From the NCBI GenBank assembly GCA_016867835.1, contig VGIQ01000006.1:1-49901 (forward strand): a DNA stretch of 49,901 nt, read 5' to 3'. Both the position numbers and the translations under genes were made by a program. Under the pieces are notes generated by a model. The model saw nothing but the letters and a program-made list of their open reading frames with translations, ran no database searches and was not told the DNA's origin. Source of the stretch: Calditrichota bacterium (GTDB lineage Bacteria; Electryoneota; AABM5-125-24; Hatepunaeales; Hatepunaeaceae). This document shows, in pieces, positions 4,205 to 49,012 of this stretch; position 1 is the stretch's first letter, and the number at the start of each line of letters is the position of its first letter.

Positions 4205-6388
4205 ATGAACAGGAACATCACATTTCGTAGCGGGCGCGGCTGCGCCCTGCTCGGTGCAGCCTTACTGGCAGTCGCCATGACCGCGCCGCAATTACAGGCG
4301 CGCCGCACATCGGACCGCGGCCCGGTTCGCTTCAAAGAGGGTGCCCAAGTCGATGTCGGCAAGCGGTCGCTCATGGTGCACGACGTAGGCAATGTCCGGA
4401 TGTCGCTCTCCAACTGGGGCGAACAGGGCAACCCGGACGGGGTGCCGGGCTACTACGGCTTCGAATTCCCCCTCGGCAGTGGCAACGACTTCCTTTTCAG
4501 TTCCGGTATCTGGGTCGGCGCTATCGTAAACGGCCAGAAATTTGTCTCCACCGGCACCGACGGCGATAACGGGACGAATGAATTCGCACCCTTCCTCTCG
4601 TCGGTCGCGCCTTATCTCAACAGTTTCTATCCGCTATCTGCCATTAGCGAACTCGTCAATGGCCGCGCCACCGTGCGAGGTGCTAAAGGCGTCGATGATG
4701 ACAACGACGGCCGAATCGATGAAGACCCCGCCGGCGACAGGACGAACGACCTGATGGACGAAGCCTTCGTTCATGGGGCTTACAACGATGACGGCGATGA
4801 AAAACTCGATGAGGACGGAGATGCGCGTGGCACCCAGGAATACTTCACCGTCTATGATGACCGCTACGTCGGACAGGTGCAAAGTTCCGACCCCGACGGT
4901 CATACGCCGCTCAACATCCTCGTCACCCAGCGCACTTATGCGTGGGGCGAAGCCTATGCCTCAGAGTTCATCCTCGTCGATCTGGTTGTCCGGAATATCG
5001 GCGAACTGCCACTGACCGAGGTCTATGTCGGGCTCTTCGCCGACGCGGACATTGTCGCCAAGGGCGAGTCCGGCGACGCCGCCTCTGCCGACGACTGGAA
5101 CTTCTATGACGCTCCCAACCTGATGATGGTCCAGGGCGACGACACCACCGATGCCGACGGTTTCGGTCCGGGCCTCTTTGCAATGAAGATCGTCCGGACG
5201 CCCAAACCGCTCGACTCGCTGAAGATATCGTTCAGCAATTTTGAGCGGCTTGGCGGCGGCGACCCCGAGACCAACATCGACAAATACAACCTCCTGAATC
5301 CCGGTCCCAACGGCGTCATCATGCCGCCGGCGTCATTCCTTAGCGACTGGCGCTACCTGTTGGGCTTCGGTCCCAAGGAAGGCTCCTGGGTCTTGCGGCC
5401 CGGCGAGTCCCTGCCGGTTACGGTGGCTTTCATTGCCGGAACCCGGCTGGAAGACCTGCGCCGCAACGCCCAATGGGCCCAGGCCATTTATGACAACGAC
5501 TTTCAAGGCCCGCAAGCCCCCGATCAGCCGCGTTTCAGCCTCCAGCCTTCAACCGATCGCATTCGCATCACTTGGGAGAGCAACGCCGAGACTTCTCAGG
5601 ATCCCATTTCGAAGGATTTCGACTTCGAAGGTTACGTGATCCAGCGCTCGAGCGATGCGGTCAACTGGTTCACCCTGACGCAGTTTGATAAGATCAACCC
5701 TAACGACGAATTCGATCCGGAGTTCCGCCGCGAAAATCTCAACCTCGGGATGCCTTACGACTCCATCCGTTTCGGAGACGCCGGACTCGGATGGACCGGC
5801 ACCCTCGACACCGTCTTTGCCGGCACCGACAGCGCCCATGTCGTCCTGCGCGGCAACTACTGGCTCGAGGACCGCGACGTCTTGCGCGGCTGGAACTATT
5901 TTTACATCGTCCGCGCTTTCGACAAGGGCGTATCGGGTGCAGGGGTTCTGATCACCCCGGTCGGTCGATCCTACCTTGAAGCCGCGGCAACTAACACCCT
6001 CTCAACCTGGCCCTACGGCGAAGACCTCGAACGGGTCATCGTCGTCCCCAATCCCTATCAAGGCGGGCATCAACTTGAGTCGAGCGGCGCGCTCGATGCC
6101 TCCGGCGTCAAGCGCTATCCGCGCAAACTCTACTTCATGAACCTCCCCCCCACCGGTGCCCGCATCGACGTCTATTCCCTCGCCGGTGATCACATCATCA
6201 CCCTGGAACATCCACCGGGCGGATCGGACCAACTGGTATGGGATATGCGCAACAAGTACCAGCAGGAGATCGTGAGCGGCGTCTATCTCTATGTCGTCGA
6301 GTCCGGCCGCTTCTACTACAGCGGAGGTCGCCGCTGGATCGAAGGCTCCGGGCAGACGAAGATCGACAAGTTCGTAGTTTTGAAGTAA
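4205..6388 (+). CDS. Large secreted protein with acidic Asp-rich repeats and variant T9SS C-terminus
   Basis: 727 residues. A signal peptide ends near residue 32 (MTAPQLQA). Residues 160-205 carry acidic motifs: DDDNDGRIDEDP and later YNDDGDEKLDEDGD. They resemble the DGRIDE motifs in the receptor encoded just upstream and could bind calcium. A fibronectin-like or beta-sandwich region lies near residues 440-600. The last 110 residues start with VVPNPYQGG and contain IDVYSLAGDHI and VSGVYLYVVES, a variant T9SS sorting module that ends in KFVVLK. It starts 11 bases after the receptor gene, so the two are probably co-transcribed and their products may meet at the cell surface. No enzyme motif was recognised. 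Confidence 0.8.
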   Translation: MNRNITFRSGRGCALLGAALLAVAMTAPQLQARRTSDRGPVRFKEGAQVDVGKRSLMVHDVGNVRMSLSNWGEQGNPDGVPGYYGFEFPLGSGNDFLFSSGIWVGAIVNGQKFVSTGTDGDNGTNEFAPFLSSVAPYLNSFYPLSAISELVNGRATVRGAKGVDDDNDGRIDEDPAGDRTNDLMDEAFVHGAYNDDGDEKLDEDGDARGTQEYFTVYDDRYVGQVQSSDPDGHTPLNILVTQRTYAWGEAYASEFILVDLVVRNIGELPLTEVYVGLFADADIVAKGESGDAASADDWNFYDAPNLMMVQGDDTTDADGFGPGLFAMKIVRTPKPLDSLKISFSNFERLGGGDPETNIDKYNLLNPGPNGVIMPPASFLSDWRYLLGFGPKEGSWVLRPGESLPVTVAFIAGTRLEDLRRNAQWAQAIYDNDFQGPQAPDQPRFSLQPSTDRIRITWESNAETSQDPISKDFDFEGYVIQRSSDAVNWFTLTQFDKINPNDEFDPEFRRENLNLGMPYDSIRFGDAGLGWTGTLDTVFAGTDSAHVVLRGNYWLEDRDVLRGWNYFYIVRAFDKGVSGAGVLITPVGRSYLEAAATNTLSTWPYGEDLERVIVVPNPYQGGHQLESSGALDASGVKRYPRKLYFMNLPPTGARIDVYSLAGDHIITLEHPPGGSDQLVWDMRNKYQQEIVSGVYLYVVESGRFYYSGGRRWIEGSGQTKIDKFVVLK

Positions 6389-19553: not shown

Positions 19554-19593
19554 GTTATTGGCTGAACAGCCTGTCCGAAAATGCGCTGGGGTG

Positions 19594-19936
19594 CCGTCGG
19601 GTGTCCTCACCCGACGGGAAGTCATTGCTGGGGTGTCGTCGGGTGTCCTCACCCGACGGGAAATCATTGTTAATAAAGGTATGTTGGTGTCGGATTAGAC
19701 AACTTACACCGCGGCCAAGAGTGCTTGATAGTGTCAGGTGTGACACCTGACACCACATCTAAATGCGCTTGGGTGCCGTCGGGTGTCCTCACCCGACGGG
19801 AAGTCATTGTTAATAAAGGTATGTTGGTGTCGGATTAGACAACTTACACCGCGACCAAGAGTGCTTGATAGTGTCAGGTGTGACACCTGACACCACATTA
19901 AGAGTGCTTGATAGTGTCAGGTGAGACACCTGACAC
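19594..19936. repeat. Array of two kinds of palindromes in tandem 140-bp units
   Basis: Element P (CCGTCGGGTG-TCCT-CACCCGACGG, 10-bp stem) occurs at 19594-19617, 19636-19659 (one wobble) and 19776-19799. Element Q (GTGTCAGGTG-3 bases-CACCTGACAC) occurs at 19731-19753, 19871-19893 and 19914-19936. P and Q are joined by a conserved linker of about 70 bases, and the P-linker-Q unit repeats with a period of exactly 140 bases (about 19623-19758 and 19763-19898) with few differences. An extra P precedes and an extra Q follows, 42-43 bases away. This resembles REP/BIME elements. The 492-base gap 19554-20045 holds no gene that I can support. Confidence 0.9.
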
Positions 19937-20045
19937 CACATTTGATCGTTCTCAGACACACTGTTAGACCTTAGAGTAAGCAGCACTCAACGGTCTCAAC
20001 ATCTCTGCGAGAGCGTGTCCGTCATCGTCTCATTAGAGGATTAGA

Positions 20046-37941: not shown

Positions 37942-38568
37942 TTATTCCGCAATCGGCGCTCTCCCCGGCGCCAGCCGCTCGGCGATCTCCTTGGGCACAT
38001 AGACCCGCACCCAGCCTGTTCGCCCCATAATCGCCAGTTCGGTCTGAAGGCGATGCGCCATCCTCGCAGTTAGAACCACACCCCGCCGCAGGAGATAGAC
38101 GTCGCCTTCCTGATAGATGTCTTGCGCCAGGCGGAATCCCGGCTGCAGTTCCGAGGGCTTGACGTCGATCACTGTTTGGGTGTCGATTTCTTGCTCGCGC
38201 TGCATTAAAGCCTTAACCGCGAGACGAGCCAGTTGAGCGTCGTAGGATTTGCCCGATTCGTTGTGAAGGTGATCCTTGGCGACCTGCCAGGCTGCTCGCT
38301 TTGGGTCGGGACTGGCTTCGAGGAATCGGTCCACGCCGTCGGCGATGCGGAGTATTCGGCTCGTAACCGGCAGGTCGATAGCCTTCTTGCCGGCCGGGAA
38401 ACCGGAGCCATCGACGTTCTCGTGGTGGTCTTCCACCATCTGGCCGGCGCTCCCCAGCCCCGGCACACCGCTCACGACGATCCCGCTGATGACCGGATGC
38501 CTCTTGAAGAGCGTCAGATCGGCTGGGTCGAGGTCCTCGGGGCGGGCGTGAATCATCCGCTCGGGCAA
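37942..38568 (-). CDS. HD-GYP domain, downstream half of a frameshifted regulator
   Basis: 208 residues that continue the HD-GYP domain begun in the neighbouring upstream frame. It contains HPVISGIVVSGVPGLG, the diagnostic HHENVDGSGFP (usual form HHExxDGSGYP) and SRILRIADGVDRFL. After the phosphodiesterase domain comes a C-terminal region with VYLLRRGVVLTARMAHRL, which has the look of a small beta-rich domain. HD-GYP proteins cleave cyclic di-GMP. As it stands this half lacks the HD pair, which lies in the upstream frame (LLHDIGKF). One base inserted after AGT near 38562 would give a continuous protein. Confidence 0.8.
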   Translation of the reverse strand: MPERMIHARPEDLDPADLTLFKRHPVISGIVVSGVPGLGSAGQMVEDHHENVDGSGFPAGKKAIDLPVTSRILRIADGVDRFLEASPDPKRAAWQVAKDHLHNESGKSYDAQLARLAVKALMQREQEIDTQTVIDVKPSELQPGFRLAQDIYQEGDVYLLRRGVVLTARMAHRLQTELAIMGRTGWVRVYVPKEIAERLAPGRAPIAE

Positions 38569-39290
38569 CTAAATTTGCCAATGTCGTGGAGCAGCGATGC
38601 GAGGCTTAAGTCGCGCATTTCGATGGGCGACAGGTTGAGCGCTTCGCCGATCCGGCGCGAGAGGTCTTCGACGCGGGTTACATGGCTCGAGCCGCTGGCC
38701 ATTACGTTGTCGAGCAATTCCGCCATCATCCGAACTGAGCCGAGGTAGTCGCGTTCGAGGTCCATCTGCTGCTCTTCGAGTTCTCGGACGGTCTTCTTAA
38801 AATGCTCCTGTATAGTGTCGAGTTGGCTGGTAAGGGTCTTGGCAGCGCTCTTCATCTGCTCGGCAACCTGAGCGCGCATCGCCCCGACGCTCATTTCACG
38901 ACGGCGGCGGTCATTTGCTTCGTGCTCAAGGAGACCGCCGACGGTCGCAGCGAACATGTCGAATGAAAAGGGCTTGGGGAGAATGGCCCGGACGCCGCGG
39001 GCAAAGAGGTCGCGGGCTAATTGCGGGTCGTCGATGCCGGTAGTGACGATTAGGAGTTGATCGGCCTGTCGCTGGAATATCTCCCGGACCAGCGCCTGCC
39101 CGTGCATGTTGGGCATACGAAGGTCGGTGATAACGAGGTCGAACTTCTCGCGTTCGAAGATTTTCAACGCCGCAATGCCGTCGAGCGCCGGCGAAGCCGT
39201 GATGCCGATCTTCTCCAGAAAGGCGACCAGATTGCGCAAAATCTCGGCGTCGTCATCGACCACGAGGGCGCGATTGACCGTCGATGTCAA
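38553..39290 (-). CDS. Response regulator receiver plus start of an HD-GYP domain, frameshifted
   Basis: The receiver domain starts NRALVVDDDAEIL and has the phosphoacceptor aspartate in LVITDLRMPN and the lysine in LPKPFSFD. A coiled-coil linker (about residues 140-185) leads into an HD-GYP domain that breaks off after LLHDIGKFSC. Joined with the next frame, the full protein would be a c-di-GMP phosphodiesterase controlled by a sensor kinase. No kinase is next to it. The start is uncertain: TTG 39290 fits the family, and TTG 39323 lies within the repeat array. There is no clear ribosome binding site. Confidence 0.8.
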   Translation of the reverse strand: MTSTVNRALVVDDDAEILRNLVAFLEKIGITASPALDGIAALKIFEREKFDLVITDLRMPNMHGQALVREIFQRQADQLLIVTTGIDDPQLARDLFARGVRAILPKPFSFDMFAATVGGLLEHEANDRRRREMSVGAMRAQVAEQMKSAAKTLTSQLDTIQEHFKKTVRELEEQQMDLERDYLGSVRMMAELLDNVMASGSSHVTRVEDLSRRIGEALNLSPIEMRDLSLASLLHDIGKFSCPSG

Positions 39291-39312
39291 TTTAAGGTCG
39301 GGCAAGGGGGGG

Positions 39313-39383
39313 TATAGGCTCAAGACTCAAGGCTTTAGGCTCAAGGCTTTAGGCTCAAGGCTTTAGGCCCAGGGTTCAAGGCT
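39313..39383. repeat. Heptamer array GGCTCAA/GGCTTTA
   Basis: Fourteen-base units (GGCTCAAGGCTTTA, first copy GACTCAAGGCTTTA) repeat at 39324-39337, 39338-39351 and 39352-39365, with partial copies on both sides. Each unit is two heptamers of the same family as the array at 14997-15038 (reverse strand). It fills the gap between ptsI and the response regulator gene. Confidence 0.8.
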
Positions 39384-39409: not shown

Positions 39410-41152
39410 TCAGTCAAACCATATCGGCAGGTTGGCGAAGCGGTGCTTCATCGTCTCCCAACAGAACTCTCGCAGTTCTGCAACGCCGGTCTTGGTGAGC
39501 GCGATCTCGGTCATCGCACGAGCCTCATCGAAAGTGAAGGAACGGATCAGTTTTTTCACCTCGGGAAGCGCTACGGGACTGACCGAAAGTTCATCGAGGC
39601 CAAGCCCCACCAGCAGCATCGTTGCCGTCGGACTGGCGGCAAGTTCACCGCAGATGCCGGTGGTAATCCCGGCCCGGCGAGCGGCTTCAACGGTGATGCG
39701 TATCATCCGGATCACCGCCGGATGAAGCGGGTCATAACGATCGGCGACCCGTTCATTACCGCGATCGACCGCCAATGTGAACTGCGTCAAGTCGTTGGTG
39801 CCAATGCTGAAGAAATCCGCCGCTGCAGCCATCTCATCCGCCATCATTACGGCTGAGGGGAGTTCGATCATGACCCCGAAAGCGACATTCGCGCTGTCGG
39901 GTATTCCATCAGCGGCAAGGCTATGACGGGCCGCGTCGAGCAGTTGCCGGGCGCGACTCACTTCTGCCGGATCGGTTACGAACGGGAGCATGATCCGGGC
40001 GCGACCGTGAACCGCCGCACGAAGGATGGCGCGGAACTGGTCTTTCAGTATGTCGGGATGGTCGAGGCTGACCCGCACTGCACGCCAGCCCATAAAGGGG
40101 TTTGCTTCAGCCGGCAGCGGCATTTCAGGGAATATCTTGTCCCCGCCGACATCGAAAGTCCGGATGGTAACCGGATGCGGCCAGGCGGCTTCGAGAACCC
40201 GGCGATAGTCTTCGTATTGCTCGTCTTCGGTCGGTATGCGCCGCCGTGCAAGTAGAAGATATTCAGATCTAAACAATCCGACCCCTTCGCCGCCGCGCTT
40301 CACCACCGACTCGATCTCCTGTGGCAGTTCGATGTTAGCCCGGAGGGCTACCGGGTGACCATCCAGAGTCTCCGCGGGAAGACGGACCGCATCCTTCAGA
40401 CTCTCAAGGTATTCAAGATAGCGGTCGAGTTTGGCCTGGTATTCACTCTCGGTCGCCGTCTCGGGCCGGACAATCACCTTACCGCTGTTGCCGTTGACGA
40501 TGATCGAGTCACCGGGAGAAATAGACCGGGAGACGTCTTTCAGGCCGACCACTGCCGGCACTTCGAGCGCCTTCGTGAGAATCGCCGTATGCGATGCCGC
40601 GCCGCCAAGATCGATAGCAACGCCGATGACGTTCGACTTCAGAAGGTGCACCACGTCCGAGGGCAGTAGGTCGTCGGCTACCAGTATAGCCGGGCCGTCG
40701 GTCGGAAGCGACCGGCCATCGCCCTGCCCGAGGAGGTTAAGGACGATGCGACGGCCGATGTCGGTTACGTCCTGAGCGCGCTGGTGAAAACGAGCCCCTT
40801 CGACCGCCAGCAGCCTCTCCCGCCACTTCATAGCCGACGATTCCACGACCCACTCGGCGCTCATTGCTTCACTTCGGATGCGGGATTCAATCTCGCCGAC
40901 GAACTCGACGTCGTCGATGATCATCTGCTGGGCGTCGAAGATGTAGGCAGCGCTTTCGCCGGCTTCGCGGGAGAGTTGCTCGCGGAGTCCGGCGACTTGA
41001 CGACGCGCCAGTACCAGCGCCCGGCGAAACCGGTCGATCTCGCGGCCTGTAGCCTCAGGCTCGAGCCGACGCGGGGCGACGTCAGGACTGTCGTGCCGGT
41101 AGAGAAGCGTCTTGCCGATAGCCAGTCCCGGTGCGGTGGGCGAGCCTATCAG
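39410..41152 (-). CDS. ptsI: Phosphoenolpyruvate-protein phosphotransferase (enzyme I)
   Basis: 580 residues if it starts at CTG 41152. The N-terminal part reads IGSPTAPGLAIGK; the phosphorylated histidine lies in GGAASHTAI; the PEP-binding barrel has VGLFRSEYLLL, IRTFDVGGDK, FSIGTNDLTQ and GICGELAASP with the active cysteine. Enzyme I takes phosphate from PEP and hands it to HPr. The frame is open up to TTG 41254, which would add 34 residues, but a promoter (41234-41261) lies across that codon. Starting at CTG 41152 gives the normal family length and the normal MIxG-type beginning. No HPr or EII gene is adjacent, so it may serve a regulatory PTS. Confidence 0.9.
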   Translation of the reverse strand: MIGSPTAPGLAIGKTLLYRHDSPDVAPRRLEPEATGREIDRFRRALVLARRQVAGLREQLSREAGESAAYIFDAQQMIIDDVEFVGEIESRIRSEAMSAEWVVESSAMKWRERLLAVEGARFHQRAQDVTDIGRRIVLNLLGQGDGRSLPTDGPAILVADDLLPSDVVHLLKSNVIGVAIDLGGAASHTAILTKALEVPAVVGLKDVSRSISPGDSIIVNGNSGKVIVRPETATESEYQAKLDRYLEYLESLKDAVRLPAETLDGHPVALRANIELPQEIESVVKRGGEGVGLFRSEYLLLARRRIPTEDEQYEDYRRVLEAAWPHPVTIRTFDVGGDKIFPEMPLPAEANPFMGWRAVRVSLDHPDILKDQFRAILRAAVHGRARIMLPFVTDPAEVSRARQLLDAARHSLAADGIPDSANVAFGVMIELPSAVMMADEMAAAADFFSIGTNDLTQFTLAVDRGNERVADRYDPLHPAVIRMIRITVEAARRAGITTGICGELAASPTATMLLVGLGLDELSVSPVALPEVKKLIRSFTFDEARAMTEIALTKTGVAELREFCWETMKHRFANLPIWFD

Positions 41153-41233
41153 AGTCCGCTGACCGGTCGAACCGGTCTTTAATACTGCGGAGACATCTTT
41201 AACCGGGCTATGTCGTTTCGTTTCGATACTTTG

Positions 41234-41261
41234 AATATAAGGGCAGGGCGGCAAAATGCAA
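41234..41261 (-). promoter_or_regulatory. Sigma-70-type promoter of ptsI
   Basis: On the minus strand TTGCAT (41261-41256) and TATATT (41239-41234) are 16 bases apart. Transcription should begin near 41227, after the TTG at 41254, and 75 bases before CTG 41152. Confidence 0.5.
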
Positions 41262-43708: not shown

Positions 43709-44101
43709 TTAGTTCTCCAAAGCGCCGGCGTCGATCCAGGCTTTGATCGAGTCGATCTGAGTGTTCTCCAGGAACAGCCCGCCTTGCGGCATCCGGGGTT
43801 GGTCTTCGCCGGTGAGCCGGCGGACTAACTGGCTCCCGGTCGCATTGCCGGGCCGGATGCGCCCGCCACTCATAGCACCGGAGTAGGTTGTCAGGTCGTA
43901 GAAAGAGGCTTGCCCTCCGGCACGGTGGCAGGTCGTGCATTTCTGTTGCAGAAAGGCGCCGATGCCGCTATCGCCCGACCACCTGGCGCGCAAAGAACTT
44001 CCGCTGCCCGGCGACGTCGGCCCGCTTTTGTCATCGCTGCAACCCAGAACAAGCATAGTCGCCGCGATAGCGATCGTAAAAATTCGACTTGGGAGATTCA
44101 C
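43709..44101 (-). CDS. Cytochrome c-like lipoprotein
   Basis: 130 residues. A lipoprotein signal ends in LVLGC near residue 21. The mature part has a single heme-binding motif CTTCH (KCTTCHRAGG) and a later methionine in PRMPQGG that could be the axial ligand. It resembles the planctomycete-type cytochrome c domains found in FCB and PVC bacteria. The GTG start overlaps the stop of the upstream beta-helix gene (GTGA), so the two are translationally coupled. A role in electron transfer at the outer face of the membrane is likely; its link to the neighbouring secreted proteins is not clear. Confidence 0.82.
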   Translation of the reverse strand: MNLPSRIFTIAIAATMLVLGCSDDKSGPTSPGSGSSLRARWSGDSGIGAFLQQKCTTCHRAGGQASFYDLTTYSGAMSGGRIRPGNATGSQLVRRLTGEDQPRMPQGGLFLENTQIDSIKAWIDAGALEN

Positions 44102-45849
44102 TTCAGCAACACCACTTGAGTTGAAATGGATCGACTGCCGGCTACGGCGGTCAACAGGTAAATTCCGGCCGGAAGGTCGTTCCCCTCGATGATGACCCGA
44201 TGAGAACCAGCATCGTAGTTCATCGCTCCAAGATCCCGTAACGTCCTTCCGTTTAGCCCGCGAAGGAGAAGGCTCACCCGCGTAGCCTCGGGCAAAATTA
44301 ATGTAACGACTGCCGTCGCATTAAAGGGATTGGGATAGGCGGAAAGGCGCATCGCGTAGGGCGGGATTCCGATCCCGCCGTCGTCGGGGATTGAAAGCGA
44401 GACCGCCCGCACCGGGATTTCGACCCGCGCTTCGTCGCGGTCGTCAGACTCTATGAGAATCGTCGCGACATACTCCCCGTCAACCTCGGCGCGAAACATC
44501 ACATAGACCCACATCGAATCGCCCGGTTCAAGGACCTGCTCGTCTTCGATGCCGCCAAACAGGACGAAGGCATCGGGAGTCTCCGATTCCAATGTTACTC
44601 GCCGGAGGGATAGGTTGCGCAGGCCGATGTTGGAGATGAAGAGCGTGTCGGATCTGGCGCCTTCGGGCGACTCAAGATAGACTTCACGCGGATCGGCGGC
44701 GAGATTGCCTTGCGGGAAGTAGAAGGGGCCGATGTCGGCGATGGTGCCGTCGGGGTCGGGGTCGGCTTCGGGGTCACCGGCGTCGATGCAGGGTGAGTCG
44801 GGCGCGAGGAAATTGGTATCGGGCCACTGCCAGCCTTCTACGATGCCGGGATCCATTAAGAGGTTGCCATAGCGATCGGTCGAGTCGCCGTTAGCGTTGG
44901 TGCGGGAAGGTATAGCAAACCCATCATATTGAATGTTTCCATTCCCCTCAACCTGAATAATGCTAGAAACATCCTCAGAAGAAAAGTTGCTATATTCAAT
45001 ATTAGGAAAATTATCTGCATCCAGATTATGATCAATATCATAAATATAGATAGTATTTCTGCCAGAAACAAAAATGCATGCAGTAATTGATAAGGGATTA
45101 TCATCTGGATCCATTGCATCATATGCAACTGACACATCGCAATTCTTAAATATGCAATTATGGAGCGAAAATGCGCCAGCAGTCGAAATGCCAATTCGCA
45201 CCCGATAAAATGCAGTATTGCTAATGAAAGTGTTACTCTGCGCTGTGCCCACCGCGAACCGCCCATTTACTGCCATTTCGACAAAATAGCAATTATTAAT
45301 AATCATTTCATTTGCATTTAGAGAGGAAATGCCCTCTCTGAAGTTGCGGAATATACACGCGCTGAATATTATGGAATGATAATAACTTAAGATGGAAACG
45401 GATGGGGGGCCGTCTGCAAATTCAAAAGGTGGACTTGTGTCAGAAAATATGCACCATTCAAAATTCGACTGCTGATCGGTCCTCAATGTGTCGTCAAAAA
45501 AAAGCCCAATCCAGTTTCGATTACCCAATCTGCCAAAATGTACTGGCTCCTCACTTGTTCCTAAGGCCAAAATGACACCCTCGACTATGATCGTGCCCCG
45601 CCATGGAATCTGAATGACCACTCCGGGCTCGATAACGAGGGTATCTCCGGATCGAACTCCGAAACCACTAGTGCCATCATCGGCGTGATAGGGGCTTCCT
45701 TCTCGCGTCAAGGTGCCATTGATCCAACCGCCAATGTGAGTCTGCGACCACAAATCGTGCACGAAGCAAAACAGCGCCAATAGGCAAAGGGTCGAAAGTC
45801 CTAGAGGACGGCTTTGAATATCTGTAATCTTCATGTGCCGTAACCCCAT
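44098..45849 (-). CDS. Secreted right-handed beta-helix protein with T9SS sorting domain
   Basis: 583 residues. The signal peptide covers about residues 1-35 (LCLLALFCFVHDLWS). A parallel beta-helix region (about 60-330) has recurring short strands such as ISSLNANEMIINNCYF and FSLHNCIFKNCD, as in pectate-lyase-like folds. A SPCIDAGDPEADPDPDGT end piece and a choice-of-anchor/ASH-like sandwich follow. The T9SS module starts AYPNPFNATA and ends STQVVLLK. AGGAG lies seven bases before ATG 45849. The part encoding the beta-helix (about 44890-45800) is visibly AT-rich, while the 3' part is as GC-rich as the rest of the window. It lies ten bases after the subtilase gene. Confidence 0.85.
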   Translation of the reverse strand: MGLRHMKITDIQSRPLGLSTLCLLALFCFVHDLWSQTHIGGWINGTLTREGSPYHADDGTSGFGVRSGDTLVIEPGVVIQIPWRGTIIVEGVILALGTSEEPVHFGRLGNRNWIGLFFDDTLRTDQQSNFEWCIFSDTSPPFEFADGPPSVSILSYYHSIIFSACIFRNFREGISSLNANEMIINNCYFVEMAVNGRFAVGTAQSNTFISNTAFYRVRIGISTAGAFSLHNCIFKNCDVSVAYDAMDPDDNPLSITACIFVSGRNTIYIYDIDHNLDADNFPNIEYSNFSSEDVSSIIQVEGNGNIQYDGFAIPSRTNANGDSTDRYGNLLMDPGIVEGWQWPDTNFLAPDSPCIDAGDPEADPDPDGTIADIGPFYFPQGNLAADPREVYLESPEGARSDTLFISNIGLRNLSLRRVTLESETPDAFVLFGGIEDEQVLEPGDSMWVYVMFRAEVDGEYVATILIESDDRDEARVEIPVRAVSLSIPDDGGIGIPPYAMRLSAYPNPFNATAVVTLILPEATRVSLLLRGLNGRTLRDLGAMNYDAGSHRVIIEGNDLPAGIYLLTAVAGSRSISTQVVLLK

Positions 45850-45859
45850 TTTGACGCTC

Positions 45860-48701
45860 CTATCGTAATACGGTCAGTTTACTACGAACCTCCGAGATTT
45901 GCCCTTTTTGTGACCTAAAGGTGGCCACACAAAAGTAGATCCCAGAAGTCACCCTCATTCCATAGAAATTCCTGCCAGCCCATATCCAACTTAAATAGCC
46001 GGATTGCCGATTGGGATGAATCGACTTGGAGATGATCCTTCCCAGCGGATCGTAAATCTCAATTTTCAAATCGCCAATATCTGGCAATGCAAATAGAAAG
46101 GCGGTGGATGAGTTGAAAGGATTGGGGAAATTGCCTAAAACAGCGAATGCAGTAGGTATCGAAACACCTTCATCGGAGAAGGCTAGATCGATGGCAATCG
46201 AAGATGGAATTTCGGCGTCGATATTATCGCCGAAAACGTTGACGGAATCAAGCCCATAATCCTCGTTCTGGCTTGTGCACCAGTAACGAAAAAAGAATGT
46301 CTCCGGTGCGCGATAGCCATCCACGTCCAAGGTCGTAGTGTCGTCGCGCCAAACCGCAAGTCCAATAGGGAAGTCACCATCGACCACTGACGCCCCGATG
46401 CAGGTGTTTGCGCCATTAAAGACGCCGACCTCATCACCTTCTGAAATATCGAAATTCTCGGCTGCAATCGAGGTAATGATAATCGGATAAAAGTCATCGG
46501 TTCGAGGGAAGGAAAAATGAGCGGGATTGGAAGCGACGCACTTTGTATTACCTTGAGAATCACTTCGTCCAACCGGCTGTGCCGAAGGGTAGACCAGTTC
46601 GTCGGCATCGAAGACCTTGACCTGATAACCCATTCCCGGTGCCAAGTCTTCCATATTGCTGTATTGGAATGAAGGCTTATAGAAGTGCCCGTGCTCATCC
46701 TTGGCAATATCGAGGTTATTGGTCGCAGTTAACGACTCAAAACCGTCGTGCTCGTCGAGGGTGAAATTAGGGAGGTAGGCGACGGTGCTCCAGCCAGCAG
46801 GTAGTTCAATCGGATCGTCCGGTTCAGCCTGTTTGCCAAGCCAGACGACAGTGCCGGCCGCATTCAACTTGATCAGATAGCCCTGCTTGTAGTCCCAAGA
46901 GGGGATGTTACAGAACTCCTGTGCGGGATACCAGAATTGACCATCACCATTCTTCAACTGATAAAGTTCGTTGGCAACTTCGTCAAACATTAGGAAGATG
47001 CCGTTCTCATCGTCAAGGCCGTTTTCGGCGGTGTAGTAGGGTATCACCCGGGAAGATATCCAGTGCCAGGTATTGGCGTTGAGTGCACGTGACTGGTGCT
47101 GCCCATAGACGACCGCATTGCCCATATTGAGTTGGCCGTAACCTACTTCCTCGTTCCAAGTGCCATAAGGATAATCTACGAAAAGTTGGAATCCTATTTG
47201 CCCCTCATCGATCTTGGTGGCGGTGATGCAGAGGATCTCAAAGAGGTTTTGAGGTGTTAATGTAGACTCTTGTGACAGCAACAAGGCTGCTACACCACTC
47301 ACCATAGGGGTAGATCCCGACGTTCCCCCAAACCAAGGCACACCAAATTGAGGATCAGGAGGATATTCAGGATCGAGTTCATACTCCCAACCATTATTAT
47401 CGGTGTAGACATGAGGGCAATAGATGATCCGAGTATTCTGCGCACCGCCATTTGCTACTGTCAGCCAAGATGGTGCCGTAATATCAAGTAGTAGGCCAAA
47501 ATTAGCGCCAATTCCACCGCCAAGCGACATCCGCTCATTATCTGCACTTGCCCCGACTGAAATAACAACCGGGTGGCTTGAAGGGTAGTCAACTTCGTCA
47601 CTGTCAGCATTGCCGCTTGCGCCCGCCATGAATATGCCATCATCGAATGCTTCCTCAAGCAGATCCTCAATGTCTTGATGCCAAGCGACCCCAAAACTCA
47701 TATTGATGATGTCAACCTCTGCCCCACGGATCAGATATACGAGCCCATCGATGACTTCGGCTTGATCGGGATTTGGACCCATTTTGCAGAAGACAATGGA
47801 AGCACCGTTTTCCTCATCCCAACCTCCCGCTATCCCAGAATATTGGCTCCCGTTGTTACTTCTTGCGCAGATGATCCCCGATACTGGGGTCCCGTGCTCT
47901 GTCTCGTATTCGAATGCCTCTGCATCGCCTATGTGTTCAGGTGCACCATAAACTACAGACACATTGTATCCAATGAGGTCATCGGCATAACCGTTGCCAT
48001 CATCGTCATCATCATTCAAGTCGCCGGGATCCAAGACCCATTGGCCGTTGACGAACTCCATCGTGTGGCCGTCTTCGTCAGCATCTTCATCGAGGTTCTG
48101 CCAAACATTCTCGCGAATCTCGGAGTGCTGAAACAGAAGGCCGGAATCGAGAACTCCGACCTTCACGGAAGGTGAGCCAGTGGTGAGTTCCCACGCCGGC
48201 TCGGGGTTGATAGTGTTGTCGAAGAGGTCGTCCTCTGGCTTCAGCAGGTAGCGCTGAATGTAATCAACCTCTTCGGTAACGCCAGGGTCATTGGGCATGC
48301 TGAAGTAGGCCCTGACGTTGTTTGAACCCTTCACGACGAGGCTGGAGTTGAGGTAGGACTCCATGAAATCGAGTGGATCCGGCTCAGGGGAGCCGGTCGA
48401 TTGGATGAGATAGGTGCCGAGGGCGTTGACCTTTATTGTTTCGCCCTCCAGAAGTTGATTCAGGGAGTCGATCTGGGATGTCGTCGAGCCAGTGGTGAAA
48501 TAGACGAAGATCTCTGTTCCGACTACCCGGAACGTGTCGCCTTGATAGATCTCAAACCATTGGTCACCGGATTCAGTGAACTGCACATACTCCCTCCCGT
48601 TGAACTCCTCCGCCTCAGCCGACGTCAAGAGAGAGAGAGAGAGAGACGATTCCGATTGTGAAGATGCTCACGAGGGGGAGAGAAGCGAACCGAGCGAACA
48701 T
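45860..48701 (-). CDS. Subtilisin-like T9SS-secreted protease, out of frame at a (TC)9 tract
   Basis: The protease frame runs from TTG 48628 to the stop (922 residues). The catalytic triad is complete: aspartate in VGVLDSGL, histidine in TEHGTPVSG, serine in GGTSGSTPMVSG. An acidic loop (DLNDDDDDGNGYADD) probably binds calcium. The T9SS module starts NFPNPFNSS and ends SKLTVLR. This frame alone has no signal peptide. Just upstream, ATG 48701 with GGAGG five bases before it starts a hydrophobic leader (MFARFASLPLVSIFTIGIVS) that runs into a (TC)9 tract in a frame shifted by one base and stops after 28 codons. One more TC unit would fuse both into a normal precursor. So the gene is off in this sequence, by phase variation or by a sequencing error in the tract. 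Confidence 0.82.
48629..48646 (-). repeat. Dinucleotide tract (TC)9 in signal-peptide codons
   Basis: Eighteen bases of pure GA on the plus strand, (TC)9 in the sense of the gene. It encodes alternating Ser-Leu in the hydrophobic core of the signal peptide. Change by one or more units alters the reading frame of the subtilase. Confidence 0.95.
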
Positions 48702-48836
48702 TGCAGCCTCCATTGCGTTATGGTGTCGATGACGATCTTCAAGCCCTCTAAAGGGGCGGGAGCCTTCATTGGTCGATACGGAACAGCAGCGGCTTGAGGG
48801 CGGCGCTCGCTCTTGAGCAACGCTACTCTCCCTTAT

Positions 48837-48865
48837 ATCTTAATACATCAAAAGCAGGAAGTCAA
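48837..48865 (-). promoter_or_regulatory. Sigma-70-type promoter of the subtilase operon
   Basis: On the minus strand TTGACT (48865-48860) and TAAGAT (48842-48837) are 17 bases apart. Transcription would start near 48828 and give a leader of about 127 bases. The rest of the 336-base gap 48702-49037 shows no gene, only the tandem repeat near 49013. Confidence 0.45.
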
Positions 48866-49012
48866 TACCCCCGCGAAACTATTTTTGCGCGGTGCAGGCG
48901 CGTCTCCGAAGGAATGACCGTCAAGTCGGGTGTAGCAAATGGTCGGTGATGGTTTCATGTTCTGCCATATCCAAATGCTCTTTACCCCAACCCGCTCAGG
49001 CAACCGATCTTT

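Follow-up and report, generated by a model that had tools for sequence, protein, structure and literature searches.

The stretch of DNA analysed here, called the window below, covers positions 1-49,901 of the forward strand of contig VGIQ01000006.1 (assembly GCA_016867835.1, Calditrichota bacterium). Near its end lie a subtilase reading frame, a short leader in another frame and a tract of TC repeats within the leader, with a beta-helix gene on the 3' side. The features, all on the minus strand, are:

44098..45849, minus: beta-helix protein with a T9SS tail, located 10 bp downstream of the subtilase
45860..48628, minus: S8 subtilase ORF of 922 codons with a marginal T9SS sorting domain, intact except for its start
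48615..48701, minus: 28-codon leader ORF that encodes the N region and hydrophobic core of the signal peptide, in a frame other than that of the protease
48629-48646, minus: (TC)9 tract inside the signal-peptide core, a pure repeat followed by T (48646..48628, 19 bases)
48707..48711, minus: Shine-Dalgarno GGAGG, 5 bases before ATG 48701
48773..48792, minus: conserved 5' UTR stretch CCGCTGCTGTTCCGTATCGA
48837..48865, minus: sigma-70-like promoter TTGACT-17-TAAGAT, consensus-like
48873..48888, minus: imperfect palindrome GCAAAAATAGTTTCGC, a candidate operator that marks the 5' edge of the repeated cassette

Reading frames at the subtilase locus

The initial annotation had described a leader with GGAGG five bases before ATG 48701, which runs through nine TC units and stops after 28 codons, and a protease frame displaced from it that one added TC unit would join to it. 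The sequence agrees on each of these points: GGAGG is found at 48711-48707, translation from ATG 48701 gives MFARFASLPLVSIFTIGIVSLSLSLDVG with the stop codon at 48617-48615, and the ORF 45860-48628 is read in the next frame. When the frame was tested by unit number, 9 units were closed, 10 open and 11 closed; by the same arithmetic as 10, 7 units also open the subtilase frame. A second in-frame ATG for the leader lies at 48713. Since the subtilase frame contains a TGA at 48670-48668, just 5' of the tract, leader and subtilase are connected through the tract alone. As in contingency loci, a pure short tandem repeat with a unit that is not a multiple of three is found in the 5' coding region, and for the subtilase another unit number (10 or 7) gives an intact precursor.

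The only listed start in the subtilase frame is TTG 48628, with which the signal peptide would be lost. It is very improbable that the protein is made at nine units with no switch at the DNA level, through slippage in translation or transcription, or from this TTG. Re-initiation is conceivable, as the TTG is in frame and lies ahead of the leader's stop codon; however, the TTG has no Shine-Dalgarno sequence (the tract occupies the place), its product would lack the signal peptide that the orthologs have, and no known +1 frameshift signal was recognised.

The body itself appears sound. The ORF matches Peptidase_S8 (PF00082, E=9.7e-29), and its catalytic triad, which had been called complete, is so: D161, H245 and S437 align with the subtilase of known structure 3vv3. 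The T9SS domain that had been reported is also there, but marginally, with the C-terminal sorting domain TIGR04183 scoring 23.2 bits against a cut-off of 23. The translocon gene for the T9SS component SprA is encoded in the same genome. Given this marginal domain and the presence of a T9SS in the genome, the subtilase is a predicted T9SS cargo and would be exported.

Orthologs with about 42% identity were found in genomes G001, G007 and G008, and four ortholog loci were read. Their signal peptides end just before an FNGREY motif, like the open register in the window, and the start of the window's subtilase aligns with them just before this motif. No repeat tract was present in the leader at any of the four loci. 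A related THxGG beta-helix gene lies 3' of the subtilase in the window and at every ortholog locus found; thus, the gene pair is conserved. G007 carries two ortholog copies, of which one (L029, G007:C314) has TAG at leader codon 4, where the other (G007:C313) has TTG; start loss therefore occurs in this protease also without any repeat.

A repeated leader cassette

We searched the genome to which the window belongs, a draft and presumably metagenomic assembly of 2,903,125 bases (~2.9 Mb) in 214 contigs, for further leader copies using a composite leader query. The leader proved to be a repeated cassette with at least seven copies, on C6 (the window), C113, C124, C36, C173, C15 and C88, the last being cut by a contig end. 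The earlier reading of the locus had the leader anatomy right and missed its nature as a repeated cassette. An apparent extra copy in C9 was rejected as a chance match within another coding gene.

The unit common to C6, C113 and C124 starts with the palindrome GCAAAAATAGTTTCGC; next come a promoter whose hexamers are 17 bp apart, a 5' UTR containing CCGCTGCTGTTCCGT and the leader. Allowing one mismatch, we found the palindrome's 15-mer core five times in the genome, each time upstream of a leader copy, and it is inverted in C15 and C173; in C36 and C88 the contig ends before the palindrome and promoter region. The corresponding promoter place reads TTGACA-17-TATATT in C113 and C124, and TTGACT-17-TATGAT in C15 and C173, with spacers that are unlike one another. 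Because the hexamers and their spacing are kept while the spacer sequences differ, these comparisons suggest selection on promoter function. An Rfam search of the 5' UTR matched no RNA family. Homologous cassettes were absent from 98 other genomes, eight of the same family included and none of the same genus among them; protein and DNA-pattern scans of genome contigs, and a DNA-pattern scan of viral contigs, found no relatives of the cassette.

The bodies behind the leader are diverse. In C6 the leader precedes the subtilase, and in C36 a beta-helix protein of 1080 aa, which carries a sorting tail and is read in frame with it. In C113 the leader points to a gene paralogous to the C36 one; the two are 89% identical in nucleotides, with a dN/dS of about 0.22 across the first 420 codons compared. 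The C113 gene has a frame-breaking deletion relative to C36, located between GC-rich near-repeats (L058, cassette strand, near position 4430); owing to this second break, no unit number restores C113. In C173 and C88 the leader, or its last part, is joined directly to a sorting domain, and likewise in C15, but there the ORF ends early inside the domain. C124 is a remnant in which the leader runs into an unrelated short frame with no secreted body behind it; the gene next to it has its own signal peptide.

It should be noted that a T9SS-tail stretch (IGIPPYAM.L.A.PNPFN) is near-identical in L058, L061, L063 and the window gene 44098-45849, in some cases at contig ends, which suggests a second repeated module on the 3' side. 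L063 also carries an (ATC)7 tract at position 4215.

Tract length, possible phase variation and its alternatives

The (TC)9 tract is real and non-random. No (TC)8 match arose in 100 dinucleotide shuffles of the window, all four tracts of at least six TC units in the whole genome sit in this leader, and tracts of at least eight units were found in none of 40 other genomes (38 of the same phylum, eight of these of the same family). The number of units is nine in C6, C113 and C124, and seven in C36; C173 and C15 show no more than interrupted TC-rich sequence, and their frame continues across the leader. The 7-unit copy is open and the three with 9 units are closed; adding a single unit would open the leader in each of these three. 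Tract length therefore sets different reading states among paralogues, as in oipA and sabA of H. pylori or opa of Neisseria. The three 9-unit copies are identical in unit number, yet they differ from one another at 10 to 23 positions in the 55 bp immediately before the tract, while the tract itself stays pure. A shared number of nine behind diverged leader 5' parts can mean tract stability or gene conversion.

These observations are consistent with a portable cassette for expression and export, made up of an operator-like box, a sigma-70 promoter, a 5' UTR and a signal peptide. It has been copied before several secreted proteins, and part of its signal peptide is encoded by the TC tract. Replication slippage at the tract, the putative cause of the length differences, would shift the frame between leader and body. 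At nine units the subtilase copy would be OFF, with a 28-residue peptide made; with one more unit the signal peptide would be complete and cleaved near SAEA|EE, and the protease would be exported. Such switching may take place within the population and may affect the downstream gene through polarity. We regard it as plausible, and as about an even call, that the leader is switched by slippage and that the phase-variable subtilase was caught in its OFF state. This reading is favoured by the pure tract, the preserved promoter, Shine-Dalgarno sequence and box, the uninterrupted 922-codon body, which retains its catalytic residues, and the presence of SprA; by the confinement of long TC tracts to this leader, with 0 of the 40 other genomes reaching eight units, and the difference between paralogues (7 open, 9 closed); by the alignment of the subtilase start with ortholog signal peptides; and by a length of nine units, which is above the dinucleotide threshold of eight or more units used in a phasome scan (PMC5953494). 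That the same cassette, as a shared operator, promoter and signal peptide with a built-in TC switch, co-regulates and phase-varies several unrelated T9SS cargoes in this uncultured lineage is a more doubtful proposition, and we put it forward tentatively.

Conversely, several points speak against an active switch. Nine units go together with damaged copies (the second break in C113, the absence of a body in C124), and their sharing by three diverged copies may mean a stable tract. In addition, mutS and mutL are both present in the genome, which rules out loss of mismatch repair as a source of tract instability, and dinucleotide tracts of Neisseria were found to be non-varying in the phasome study (PMC5953494). 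The initial annotation had proposed a slipped-strand contingency layout: the anatomy fits, and paralogous leaders do differ (in frame at 7 units, out of frame at 9). Two of the three genes with 9 units, however, are broken in other respects, which a fixed frameshift explains as well as phase variation does. The main rival is a recent pseudogene: the cassette would have fused with the subtilase inside the signal peptide in the wrong frame, or the frame would have been lost later by drift. This is a possible reading, albeit one to which we give less than even weight. The junction of cassette and subtilase falls directly at the tract, the other two 9-unit copies are damaged or bodiless, and one of the two G007 copies has a stop in its own leader; against this, the 922 codons are still open with all catalytic residues in place, the promoter, Shine-Dalgarno sequence and downstream gene are kept, and the tract is still pure.

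Another, lesser rival is a consensus miscount in the draft assembly, with a true number of 10 and the gene simply ON. The assembly has 214 contigs, and the cassette is a repeat with contig ends at it (C36, C88); however, the 19-base tract is shorter than an ordinary read and has unique flanks, and the count is 9 in three copies and 7 in a fourth. We consider such an error improbable.

Comparison with known systems

In H. pylori, CT repeats in the signal-peptide region switch oipA (PMC10564699), and CT dinucleotide repeats in the 5' coding region set the frame of the surface protein SabA (PMC5371856). The TC leader described here resembles them in that repeats in the 5' coding region set the frame of a surface protein, and its layout has the anatomy of an oipA-type switch. 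However, it occurs in another phylum and with another body, one leader is common to unrelated bodies, and the documented variation from isolate to isolate belongs to the H. pylori genes. The opa genes of Neisseria form a family with a pyrimidine-rich CTCTT repeat in the shared leader-peptide region (PMC3960869), and a family with a pyrimidine-rich repeat in a shared leader is also what we find; opa, however, has a pentamer repeat and homologous bodies, whereas here the bodies range from a subtilase and beta-helix proteins to bare sorting domains. With S8 subtilases that have a T9SS sorting domain, the window's protein has the catalytic triad, the signal peptide (in the ON register) and the sorting tail in common, and it differs from its orthologs at the four loci in having the tract. 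Our literature search, the coverage of which was incomplete, found no papers joining phase variation, simple sequence repeats and type IX secretion. If the tract varies, repeat-driven phase variation of surface proteins, which has been described mainly in host-adapted bacteria, would extend to an uncultured T9SS lineage, and a single switchable leader would serve unrelated bodies.

Two further repeat regions were noticed in the window. Nested tandem repeats of 42, 43 and 140 bp lie at 19585-19942, and tandem repeats of 7, 14 and 21 bp (AGGCTTT / CTCAAGGCTTTAGG) lie at 39315-39368, between the ORFs 38553-39323 and 39410-41254.
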